Source of the DNA: Cutaneotrichosporon cavernicola
Taxonomy: Eukaryota; Basidiomycota; Tremellomycetes; Trichosporonales; Trichosporonaceae
Reading direction: 5' to 3'
Assembly: GCF_030864355.1 (NCBI RefSeq)
Contig: NC_083395.1
Coordinates: 2,728,001 to 2,792,000 of the forward strand
DNA length: 64,000 nucleotides
Positions 8,957 through 14,703 of the stretch are shown piece by piece. The translations under genes and the position numbers were made by a program. Each line of letters starts with the position of its first letter. The first letter of the stretch is position 1. The notes under the pieces were generated by a model. It was not told the origin of the DNA. It ran no database searches and worked only from the letters and a program-made list of their open reading frames with translations.

Positions 8957-10875
8957 TTACAAAACCCAGCCCTGTTCCCTACCCCACGCCATGACCTTCT
9001 GCGCCGACGAGAAGTCGGTCGCCTTTCTCCCACGCGAAGGCTTGCTCAGCGCCTCGTCGACGTCCTGCAGCATGGCCCAAGCGTCCTCCGCCCGACTCCG
9101 CACTAATTCGGTCCTAACTTGTGCGGGTGTCTTGGGTGCTGTACGTCGTCCTCGTCGGGCATACGGTTTGCGTAGCGTGGGTGTGGAATGGAGGAGGTGG
9201 CCGACGATGTAGTGCAGCCATAGCACGTTCGTTGAGGGAAGGAAGGTTTCCCATGCACCGGCGCCCTCGACAACATCGCGCTGTTCACGATACACGTCCC
9301 ACTGGTCCCCCACACCCTCGTAAACCTCTTCTGGAAGGGCAGAATAAACCGCGCCTTGATCTGGCATATCGAGACGAGACAGGCCAAAGTCGATGACTGT
9401 GACACGAACGCCTGTGGATCGCGTGTCCAGATAATCCTCGATGGGCGCTGGTGGGTCCGCGTCGACATCGTTTATCAGAATCTGCCCCTCGTGGAGGTCA
9501 CGGTGCTGATGTCAGCCACCCCAGAATACAAGTCAGCTCACCTCAAAGTCCGTCCACGTCTCCGCTCGCGCGAGGGCGTCTGCCACCTGCCAGAAGACCG
9601 CCGCTGCTTGCACCCAGCCGCGCGTGTTCTCGAATCTGTAACTCTCGAGGTCATCTCCACCGTCGGCGAGAACGATGAGTGCGTATCGCTGTAAGGATGA
9701 GAATGAGTCTCGAGTCAGTTAAGGTGAACACTGCTAGCTCACCAGGTCGGACACTCTCAGTCCCTTGCTCCTCTCTGTAGCTATCCCACGCGTCCAAAAA
9801 TTGAACGGGATACGCACCCTCCACGACGAACGCCCTGATTGTCAGCTGGGAAAGACAACGGCAGTAGAGATTACAGGTAGTACCCACCCCAGGAACTCGA
9901 CAAACCCGCCTCCCGGCGTCTGTGACATCCGCCGCGTGATCTCGATCTCGCGCACGACGTCGGAAATCGCAGAGCAATCTGGAAGGTCGCTTGTTGCCTT
10001 TCCCTTCGATCCAGAGTCCGTTTTGCCTAACAGCGGCACCACCTTGACAACCACCGCGCTGTCGCCCTCCCCGACAGAGAAGACTTCAGAGTACGAAGCT
10101 TCCCCGACCTTGGTCACCACCGGCGACATGCCGCTCGGCAGCAGCTTGGCGAAATCCGGATTAGTACAGGCTTCGGAGAAGGGTATGATCTTCTTGGTGG
10201 TGGCGCACTTGAGGAGACTGCGCAGCGCGGTCTCGCGGCTGGACAGCTCGTCAAGGGAGACGTTGCGTAGCCTACTCGCGACGATCTCAATCTCGAAGTT
10301 GGCTACGCCACGCACTGGCCGTGGTGGAGTGAGTGGTCCCCGCGCCTTGCGCACTGAACGATGGGGTGTAGGTGGGCTAGCATGTCGGGGTGATCCGGCA
10401 GAGCGTCGGCGGACTGCGCTCTTAGCGACGTGTTGGCGCAGGGTTGGATCGTCGGCCAGCCGGCGGGGCGTCTTGAGCGACACAACCTCAGAGGCCTTGA
10501 GAACAGTACATGGTGTCTTGAGGACGTTCACTCTCGTTGGCTTGAAAGGAGTCAGAGGCTCCCTGGCTGGCTGGTCCGGCGACAACTTCTTCATCCTAGG
10601 CGGCCGAAGCGGCGTCGCCATGTTGGAAGCTGAGGCAGGCGGAGATAAGCGTGAGGGTGACAGGTCGGCATGGACGCTGATGATTCTCTGTGGGTCAGTT
10701 CTGCCTCCAAAGACATGTTTGGACGCACCGTCTGCTTCTTGCCATAGGTGGTGACCTGGAATGTTAGTGTCGTCGGGTACGGCCGACTATACCTTTCGGG
10801 TCTGGAAAGAAATCAGCCACGCCCCCACGAATTGCCCCCGCGCCCCCAACTCACTCGTTCACCGAGAAACGACAT
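8957..10875 (-). CDS. Haspin-type histone H3 Thr3 kinase
   Basis: Seven exons on the minus strand: 10875-10855, 10801-10793, 10755-10729, 10687-9888, 9834-9743, 9708-9542 and 9505-8957; 554 residues. Residues 1-205 are basic and disordered (MSFLGERTRKVTTYGKKQTR at the start). The haspin fold follows: a glycine loop VGEASYSEVF near residue 213, VVVKVVP with the ATP-contacting Lys, LGAFVVEGAYPVQFLDAWD, HRDLHEGQILI with Asp375, VIDFGLSR with Asp411, and DQWDVYREQ near the end. Haspin phosphorylates H3 Thr3 in mitosis so that the chromosomal passenger complex docks at inner centromeres. The conserved haspin blocks fix all internal splices; the first three tiny exons are in phase but less certain. 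It is head to head with INCENP. Confidence 0.85.
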
Positions 10876-11236
10876 TTAAAGGATGTGTGTGTTGCTCTGT
10901 TTACGTGGAGGAGAGTGATAATATGATGATATGAGTGAGATCGAGTGTGAGAGTGCGTGAGTCATTGGAGCTCGCACCAAAACATCGAACGTCACTTGTT
11001 GTTTACAAGGCACGTGGTAAATTTGGTTCCGCTCATATGGCTTCTGAAGCGCGGCTGCTTTTTCCCTGTCAGTCAAGACTGACTGACCCAAACATGACCG
11101 CATCCTCCCAATCGCTGATATTGTCCCACTCACACAACACATTCTCATTGTCCATCAACATCATCTTGAGAAACATAGCATTGTGCATACCTATCGGTAT
11201 CACCCTCGGCCGCATACCGCATCATAGCTTTCCATC
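10876..11236. promoter_or_regulatory. Shared divergent promoter of haspin and INCENP
   Basis: This 361-base region is all that separates the start codons of the haspin-type kinase (minus) and INCENP (plus). Both promoters must lie here. I recognise no cell-cycle element with confidence. Confidence 0.55.
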
Positions 11237-14200
11237 ATGGCGTCCTCGTCCTCGTCATCGCCATCGTCATGGCCGACCTTGGACGCATTCATGCTTGATC
11301 TCACTGGGCGCCTGCGCGAGGGAGGAAGCACCAGCCTCACCCAGTTCGAGACCAGCATCAACGGCGACTGTTATGACTGGCTCGATGATTACCTCGATAA
11401 CATCGAGGCCCAGGGCAGACGGTGAGTCCCTTCTCTTTCCATCGCATCGCAACTGACAACAGTGCGCCTATCGCCGAGCTCATGAAGACACCCTCACGCA
11501 CCGCCACTGCCAAGAAGACACGCGCGACGGCAACAGCCAACAAGGCCCGCGCCGAGCAGATTCGGCAGTTCAACCTCGCCCACAGCCCGCTCACCAAGAC
11601 GCCTGCCGTGAGTCGTGGTGCTGTGCGATGCTAACAGCAGGGACGTATCCCCTTCTCCCCTCTGAGGCTGCAAGATGCCAACTCCGTAGCCCAGTCACCT
11701 TCCCGCCCTTCCCGCCCCCCACTCAAAGGCATATCGCTTGTCCTTACGCCCATGAAGGAAGAAGCTCCCAAGCCGGCACCCAAGAAGCGCGGACGGCCCA
11801 AGAAGAATGCCGACGTCGATAAGGAGAACGCTCAACCTGAAGACGCCCCTTCGAAGAGCACACGGAGTGCTTCCGCCAAGGCAACGCCGGCATCCACCGC
11901 GACCAAGTCCACCAAGACGAGAAAGGGCAAGGCGAAGAAGGAGGCCAAGGTTGCCGAGCCTGAGCCTGAACCTGAGCCAGTCGCAGAGCCCGAGGCCGCT
12001 GCCCAGCCAGAACCTGCACCTGAAGTCGAGGCTGAGTCAGAGCCAATCCCCGTCGTCGAGGAGCCTCCAACTCTTGCTGCTGCCATGGCTGCGGCCGAGG
12101 AGGAAGCGTTGGCCGAGTCTATTGTGGTGGAAGACTCGTTCGAGACCATCAACCTGGAGCCATCCACCGAGGCTGTCGCGGACGAAGGAGCCGAAGCCAT
12201 GGAGGTGGACGAACCTACCCCTGTTACCCAGCATGTTGTTCACGTCTCCCCTGCCAAGGAAGCCACTCCACCCAAGTCGCCCTCTCCCGAGCTCACCAAG
12301 TCACCTTCACCCGTCAAGGTGGTCTCTCCCGTCAAGAGGGATTCCCCCGCAAAGGAAACCAGCCCACCCCGGCCTTCCGTTCCGACGCGCCAGGTCCGCT
12401 CGTCATGGCTTAGCCAGGCGCTCGGCACCAGCACTGTTCCCGTCGGCCACCGGTTAAGCACCCAGCTTGACCCTCTGCGCAAGAGCCAGATGGCCTCGAG
12501 CCAGAGCAAGCGCAAGTCCGACGCGGACGAGGACGAGATTGCGACCTCTGACAAGAGACCCGACAAGGTTGCGCGATTCGACTCGACCACTGCCACCGAC
12601 GCTGCCTCTGGGCTTCCCATGTCGCCGAAGCAATTCACCTATTCGCGCCCTCCAGCCTCGGCAAAGTCGCTGCCTCAGGCCGAGGTCAGCACCCCCGCCA
12701 ATGCTGCCACTCGTCTCGCTGCGACGTCTGTTCCCCAGGCCCGCATGTCGAAGCTTCAGGAGATGAAGGAGCGCACCGCCGCCGCCGCGGCTGCCCGGCA
12801 GCTGGAGAAGGCCGCCGCCTCCTCTTCTGTTGAACAGGCATCTACAAACGGCGGATTTCTCCGTAACCTGGGCGGCTTCCTCGGCCGCTCCGCTGACACT
12901 GGTAACGCCCGTGACCGCGAGGCACAGGAGGTGGCCGAGCGCGAACTGTCGCGCGTCTTGCAGGAGTTACATGAGCAGGACCAGAAGGCCGAGGAGGCTC
13001 GGGTTGCCCAGGAGATCGAGGCTGCCATGGCTGTCGGGATGGAAGACGCGTTCGAGGTGGAAGACTTTGGTGACCGCGCAATCGTCATCGACGACGAGTC
13101 GGCAGATGAGTACGAGGTCAACGACTCAGTCACTCTCCCTTCGCTCCCTGGCGACAACTCGTACTTGGACGATGACGACGACGACGAGCCTATGCAGGAG
13201 ACCGCACTGTCTGCCCTCGCTGCTGCTGGCATCCAGATCCCCACGACCACGCCTGCCCGGACACCACCTCGGCCTCAACAGTCGCGGATCGCGCGGGCCA
13301 TCAACTCGCCTACTCCCGCCGCCCGGCCGCGCGGGATGACTCCCACTATTGTCGTCTCACCTCCTCCCAAGCCCAACGCCTCCAAGCCCACGCGGACCAA
13401 CAGCCGTGCGCCGAGTCGTGCCACGACCCTCGCTCAGACGCGCGGCGTCACTCCGTCCCGCGAACTGGATGACGAGGCGGATGACGAGGACGACGAGGCA
13501 TACGCCAAGGCCCGTAAGGGAGCGTCGTCTCGCAACGCTCTCAACTCGTCCGTGTCGTCAAGTGTCAGCACCCTCACGCAGGCTGAGCGCATCGCCGGCA
13601 AGGTTCTCGGTGTCAAGGCTACCCCCAACCGCGTCAAGAGTGTGCAGGCTGCTGAGGTCGCCGCGAAGAAGGATCGCGAGGAGAGGGAGCGCCGCGCAAA
13701 GATGCGCGAGCAGCTTGAGCGTAAGAAAGCCGAGGACAAGAAGCGCCGTGAAGAGGAGGACCGGGTTAAGGAGGAGGAGGAGCGGGCCAAGCGGCGCGCC
13801 GACGAGGAGGAACGTCGTCGCAAGCTCGCACACAGCGACAAGATACGTCGCCTGAAGATGGAGAAGGCCGAGCAACAGAAGAAGCAGCGCGAGGCCGAGG
13901 AGCAGAAAGCGGCCGAGAAGGCAGCCGAGGAGGAGGCCGCTGCTCTTGTCAAGCGTAGGGCTGCTGCTGCGGCCAATAGGCTCAGCCGCAGCCAGAGCAC
14001 GAGCAATCTCACAAAGGCGACAGCCAGCTCACTCAGCAAGGCTGCCGGTACCAAGACACCAGCCACCATGAAGCGCCTTGTGCCAACCCCGAGCAAAGTG
14101 ACGCAGCCTCTGAACCCTTCCAAAACGACCAACGCCAAGGCTGGCCCAAGTGTCTTCCGCGTTGAGCAAGAGGAAAGTTGCTCGACCTCGTCGATCAAGG

Positions 14201-14703
14201 CCGTGAATCGCCCGACTCTGGGCCCACCTTCGCGCACCTCTGGCATGGGCCACTCCGCTGCCGGACCGTCCAACCCAGCGCCAGTGCGTACGCACGCTGC
14301 TACGGCACTCCAGCAGCAGCGCGCGACACTCCAGGCGCAGCTCGACCAGAAGGCTCTGGACGCAGAATCGGAGAACATTGTGCTGCCTGACATCAACTCG
14401 GAATACTCGGACTCGGACGACAGCGACCGCGAGACCGACTTTAAGCGGCCCAAGTGGGCCGACAGCCCCGAGCTCAAGGAGGCGCTCGAGATGCAGGCGA
14501 GCGTCAACCCGGACGAGCTGTTCGGGCCCATCCGCCCATTGAACATGGAGGAGCTGTTTAACGCGCGCGTCGGCAAGTTCCGTGCGCGCACATCGTCCGC
14601 CAACTGGAGCGGCGCGGACCGCCTCACCGAAGCCGAGGAGCGCGAGTACGCGCGCCGCATGGGCTTCAAGGCGATCAATGCGCCGCGCGACGGTGGCCAG
14701 TAG
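11237..14703 (+). CDS. INCENP/Sli15, scaffold of the chromosomal passenger complex
   Basis: Exons 11237-11421, 11463-11607 and 11641-14703; 1130 residues. The N-terminal 60 residues (WPTLDAFMLDLTGRL ... YDWLDDYL) are the likely survivin/borealin-binding part. A long disordered region follows with AT-hook-like KKRGRPKKN near residue 155 and many Ser/Thr-Pro sites. Residues about 784-884 are a Glu/Lys/Arg run typical of the INCENP single alpha helix. The C-terminal IN-box (about 1045-1120) has PKWADSPELKEAL, NPDELFGPI, and RTSSANWSGADRLT, the Aurora-activating motif with the tandem serines. The protein scaffolds and activates Aurora kinase at centromeres and the spindle. Intron 2 ends in a CAGCAG pair, so one Gln may be optional. 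Confidence 0.92.

Follow-up and report, generated by a model that had tools for sequence, protein, structure and literature searches.

A head-to-head haspin–INCENP gene pair in Cutaneotrichosporon cavernicola and the conserved linkage of the two genes in Tremellomycete relatives

In the basidiomycete Cutaneotrichosporon cavernicola, the genes for haspin kinase and INCENP are adjacent and lie head to head on opposite strands, with start codons within 1 kb of each other (361 bp). The same two genes are adjacent in ten further strains and linked in an eleventh. The pair is real and conserved, makes functional sense and belongs to the known class of head-to-head gene pairs; judged from gene models and locus tags, what is new here is the conservation of the haspin–INCENP neighbourhood. 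Haspin makes the phosphate mark on histone H3 Thr3 (H3T3ph), and through survivin this mark recruits the chromosomal passenger complex, of which INCENP is the scaffold. The pair was analysed in a window of 64,000 nucleotides from contig NC_083395.1 (positions 2,728,001 to 2,792,000, forward strand), and the coordinates in Table 1 are those of this window.

Table 1 Features of the haspin–INCENP locus of C. cavernicola
Feature	Position	Strand	Description
Haspin kinase gene	8957..10875	-	7 exons, 554 aa, PF12330
Haspin start codon	10875-10873	-	
Haspin stop codon	8959-8957	-	
Haspin exons	10875-10855, 10801-10793, 10755-10729, 10687-9888, 9834-9743, 9708-9542, 9505-8957	-	second exon (10793-10801), 9 nt, encodes TRK
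Haspin exons 2 and 3	10729..10801	-	9 and 27 nt; encode TRK-VTTYGKKQT
Gap between start codons	10876..11236	.	361 bp; both 5' UTRs and candidate shared regulatory region
TGTTTAC, forkhead-type candidate site	10898..10904	+	motif match
TGTTTAC, forkhead-type candidate site	11000..11006	+	motif match
INCENP gene	11237..14703	+	3 exons, 1130 aa, PF03941
INCENP start codon (ATG)	11237	+	
INCENP stop codon	14701-14703	+	
INCENP exons	11237-11421, 11463-11607, 11641-14703	+	

Gene models and passenger-complex components

A Pfam domain search with the haspin model returned PF12330 with an E value of 3.3e-47 (161.7 bits). In an alignment of 20 homologues the catalytic motifs HRDLHEGQ and DFGLSR occupy invariant or nearly invariant columns, and a profile of these homologues matched solved haspin chains at 1.5e-63. 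By its domain and its HRD and D-F/Y-G/T motifs, the gene product is a haspin-type kinase, predicted to phosphorylate H3 Thr3. The 20.2-Mb genome (eight contigs) contains one strong place for haspin, matched as two pieces; three weak kinase-like matches lie elsewhere, one of them, on contig C6, at 25.1 bits against a cut-off of 25. A 559-aa model of the gene was rejected, with one intron misplaced according to the proteins of relatives and a PF12330 match of only 4.8e-46 (157.9 bits). The haspin introns are very short, one of 34 nt (9709-9742, minus strand) and the remaining five of 36-53 nt.

For INCENP, the same search returned PF03941 (E 1.1e-19), with an Aurora-binding-type IN-box at residues 1027-1083, and an INCENP profile matched structurally solved INCENP chains at 2.8e-8 across the IN-box. 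The C-terminal IN-box is thus present, and Aurora binding is predicted from it. An N-terminal block is also conserved, with KTP at residues 70-72 invariant among 14 homologues, yet the solved INCENP chains were unmatched there. The gene is the single INCENP match in the whole genome, and its product, listed as 100% identical to CcaverHIS002_0310500 of C. cavernicola strain HIS002, departs from that protein at 2 of 1130 positions in a residue-by-residue comparison. The original prediction, made from the letters of the window, had placed haspin and INCENP head to head; the gene models and both Pfam domains show that it had the identities, the orientation and the functional pairing right.

Haspin exons 2 and 3 carry an N-terminal YG[K/R] motif, similar to the YSR-type motif that binds Pds5. 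This motif is found inside the first 45 residues in 76 of 97 haspin homologues, from Tremellomycetes to Trichoderma. The available text of PMC10656103 describes a motif of haspin that is YSR-like and binds Pds5, and reports that most fungal Wapls have a similar YG[K/R] motif. Because YG[K/R] is common among the homologues, and given the motif of that study, the N-terminal YG[K/R] may be a general fungal haspin–Pds5 anchor. Among the first 30 haspin matches, 26 have the motif; the N-terminus is of the longer form in 15 of these, and the other 11 (8 Kwoniella, 2 Cryptococcus and Cryptotrichosporon argae) lack the three residues of the micro-exon, an absence that reflects either annotation skipping that exon or a real difference.

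The genome also encodes a two-BIR protein, the expected reader of H3T3ph. Compared with solved structures, this protein matched BIRC1 best (2.4e-16), followed by survivin chains, with the second BIR at 2.7e-10. In a hand alignment the second BIR keeps Trp67 and Asp71 of human survivin; positions 62 and 80, which we take to be the phosphate contacts of human survivin, are Tyr and Lys. With a two-BIR protein encoded, a survivin link is plausible, although BIRC1 is the better structural match. The haspin–H3T3ph–survivin arm that recruits the chromosomal passenger complex is covered in the accessible part of a review (PMC5743930); C. cavernicola likewise encodes haspin, an INCENP with an IN-box and a two-BIR protein, which are predicted to act in such an arm.

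Linkage of haspin and INCENP in relatives

Haspin matches were paired with same-strain INCENP matches of the protein searches by locus tag. Wherever both tags of a same-strain Tremellomycete pair could be read, they were consecutive, in 10 of 10 cases (IL334_005020/005021, L199_003527/003528, IAU60_003622/003623, IAT38_006523/006524, B9479_002846/002847, Q5752_004500/004501, CI109_103198/103199, IAR55_003082/003083, IAT40_003544/003545 and L201_003313/003314), and in each pair the contigs of both members were equal in size. The strains are Kwoniella shivajii, K. botswanensis, Kwoniella sp. DSM 27419, K. shandongensis, K. newhampshirensis, Kwoniella sp. CBS 6097, K. dendrophila, Cryptococcus sp. 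DSM 104549, C. floricola and Cryptotrichosporon argae. In Tremellales sp. Uapishka_1, haspin and INCENP both come from one 12,970-bp contig. This outcome favours the original prediction, which absence of the adjacency in close relatives would have counted against: 11 of 11 testable pairs from Tremellomycetes are linked, ten by consecutive tags and one by a shared short contig.

Outside the Tremellomycetes, haspin and INCENP were on different contigs in 7/7 species-matched pairs, of which Collybiopsis confluens, Rhodosporidiobolus ruineniae, Cyathus striatus and Mycena rosella share a tag prefix, and M. pura, M. kentingensis and Favolaschia claudopus were matched by species name alone. Left out of the count were K. 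pini and K. dejecticola, with unreadable INCENP tags, and K. mangroviensis, K. heveanensis, C. gattii, C. depauperatus and, from outside the class, Lentinula raphanica, with tags or names of different strains. The species set is a sample: scoring in the haspin and INCENP searches was limited to the 7,998 and 7,988 candidates with the most words in common, and an INCENP search gave the best 120 of 339 matches. Naganishia and Phaffia had haspin matches and no INCENP match among the matches listed. On these data, haspin–INCENP linkage appears characteristic of Tremellales together with Trichosporonales, with the order placement of some genera assumed.

As background for this conservation, the available text of PMC10568926 reports that C. 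cavernicola and C. spelunceum share about 280 collinear blocks, each 10 kb or longer, and that of PMC6730849, on mating-type scaffolds, reports that distant Trichosporonales lose synteny outside the mating-type region. These rearrangement figures are only a rough background, and 280 breaks alone would separate no more than a few percent of adjacent genes.

The gap between the start codons

The original prediction had described the space between the genes as a 361-base divergent promoter. The length is exact; "promoter" overstates the case, the span being measured between start codons. Since the 5' UTRs of both genes fall within it, any shared regulatory region would be shorter than 361 bp. The gap has a G+C content of 47% (168/361), compared with 56-60% in 12 random 10-kb stretches.

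Two copies of TGTTTAC lie in the gap. We take this heptamer to be the forkhead-type consensus, which in other fungi presumably serves genes of the G2/M phase. Gaps simulated with matching dinucleotide composition had a mean of 0.03 copies, and two or more were present in 0 of 5,000, for a pattern picked out from 12 inspected ones, four of which were forkhead variants. Genome-wide, TGTTTAC occurs 1,122 times against 1,311 for the reversed pattern, with no over-representation. Seven other mitotic loci (Polo, Bub1/Mad3, three cyclins, Ase1 and the BIR gene, named from Pfam matches) showed no clear enrichment, with 4 copies in 30.6 kb against 2.3 expected from twelve random 10-kb loci (9 copies in 120 kb; P ~0.2), in a test that is blunt because the scanned stretches include coding DNA. 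The 4 copies are spread over 3 of the 7 loci, one of them inside a coding domain; strict TGTTTAC is absent from the Polo, Bub1/Mad3 and BIR loci and from one of the cyclin loci. Because the other mitotic loci show no clear enrichment, the forkhead-type sites in the gap are suggestive only, as candidate sites and a lead for co-regulation.

Scanning both strands of the gap for MCB, SCB, E2F, CHR, TATAA, Ace2 and Mcm1 patterns gave no match, and CCAAT was found twice. The available text of PMC5137879, on the cell cycle of C. neoformans, describes a conserved G1/S programme with ACGCGT sites, a sequence absent from the 361-bp gap. The same text places budding-yeast ALK2, the yeast haspin counterpart according to the accessible part of PMC3591445, among randomly chosen periodic genes, and does not mention IPL1 or BIR1. 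The periodicity of ALK2 is consistent with cell-cycle control of haspin genes. In the available portion of PMC7090016 a C. neoformans kinase is named Alk1, and the word haspin does not appear.

Short divergent spacing is itself ordinary in the C. cavernicola genome, since the BIR-domain gene and an L23-like gene are only 314 bp apart. With a crude coding model, 184 kb yielded 13 divergent strand switches, of which 3 had gaps shorter than 500 bp; this model overlooked the small haspin exons and put the present gap at 704 bp, so its gaps are overestimates. On contig C2, at about 1272430-1272747, the two-BIR, survivin-like gene is head to head with its L23-like neighbour, the 314 bp being counted between presumed starts, and the L23-type ribosomal domain of the neighbour scored 30.3 bits, slightly short of the Pfam cut-off of 30.8. 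Head-to-head pairs make up 25.3% of neighbour pairs in S. cerevisiae, close to the random 25% (PMC3303733, available text). With close gaps this common and head-to-head pairs at that frequency, spacing and orientation alone carry little weight, and it is the conserved functional pair that stands out. The chance of one named gene lying head to head at the 5' side of another is ~6e-5, taking the number of genes as about 7,750 (PMC10568926, available text). Evidence from the single genome is weak because the pair was chosen for its functional link after being seen; conservation carries the weight.

Origin and meaning of the pair

We give a roughly even chance to the reading that this is an old head-to-head pair, kept since before the split of Tremellales and Trichosporonales, most likely through a divergent region that co-drives both genes in G2/M. 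The pair would have been fixed before these orders diverged, and the short stretch separating the starts would act as a divergent regulatory region for both genes in the same G2/M phase, so that joint timing would lead to the mark writer and the recruited complex being produced together. Co-regulation by a single promoter is our inference, as are a head-to-head arrangement in relatives, a regulatory region common to both genes, expression timed to G2/M and selection for linkage. On present sequence comparisons, co-regulation may be the best single reason for the persistence of the pair, with passive persistence a strong rival. In that rival, which we consider a serious possibility while favouring it less, the genes have been neighbours since the ancestor of the two orders, a break in the short gap would harm a core cell-division gene, and co-regulation is unneeded. 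The commonness of close divergent pairs (13 switches in 184 kb, 3 below 500 bp) fits this, as do the 314 bp between the BIR-domain gene and an unrelated L23-like gene and the lack of clear forkhead enrichment at other mitotic loci; the two identical forkhead-type sites in the gap, the single pathway shared by the haspin and INCENP products, and the rearranging chromosomes of these genera (available texts of PMC10568926 and PMC6730849) speak against it.

A more specific version of co-regulation, in which a forkhead-driven divergent promoter would hard-wire the H3T3ph pathway in cis, setting the writer/scaffold ratio and timing, and selection would have kept the pair, from the common ancestor of Tremellales and Trichosporonales onward, amid reshuffled chromosomes, appears unlikely to us. 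Still less probable is coincidence, a functional link without meaning, spotted afterwards among many neighbour pairs. Some 7,750 genes would be expected to yield many same-process neighbours by chance, and the yeast head-to-head frequency is near random (PMC3303733, available text), but all 11 testable Tremellomycete pairs are linked, which weakens this reading and makes the arrangement at least old and stable.

The mammalian haspin gene sits in an intron of integrin alpha-E with a bidirectional promoter. Haspin there is also expressed from a shared divergent promoter, whereas the partner is an integrin-derived transcript and not a chromosomal passenger gene. Bidirectional gene pairs of S. cerevisiae (PMC3303733) and human (PMC3024869), in the available texts, are likewise divergent neighbours with short gaps and functionally related products; for the haspin–INCENP pair, correlated expression is a prediction. 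No description of haspin paired with INCENP was found in the openly licensed literature, among the matches listed (titles and abstract starts). The gene pair is not described in the available portions of PMC6392335, PMC11185503, PMC11774493, PMC3591445, PMC7090016 and PMC7653285, and that of PMC7614391 contains both gene names, with pairing and synteny terms used for other matters.

The available text of PMC10568926 reports no obvious centromeric repeats in C. cavernicola genomes and suggests holocentric or very short centromeres, either of which would make the localisation of haspin and the passenger complex in this organism interesting. If the two genes are co-regulated, haspin and INCENP doses would be coupled at the DNA level across two fungal orders, and editing one short region would change the Aurora B scaffold along with the writer of H3T3ph. 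The pair offers a convenient setting for asking whether loading of the passenger complex is sensitive to the ratio of writer to complex, and a clean case for separating selected from passive gene linkage.
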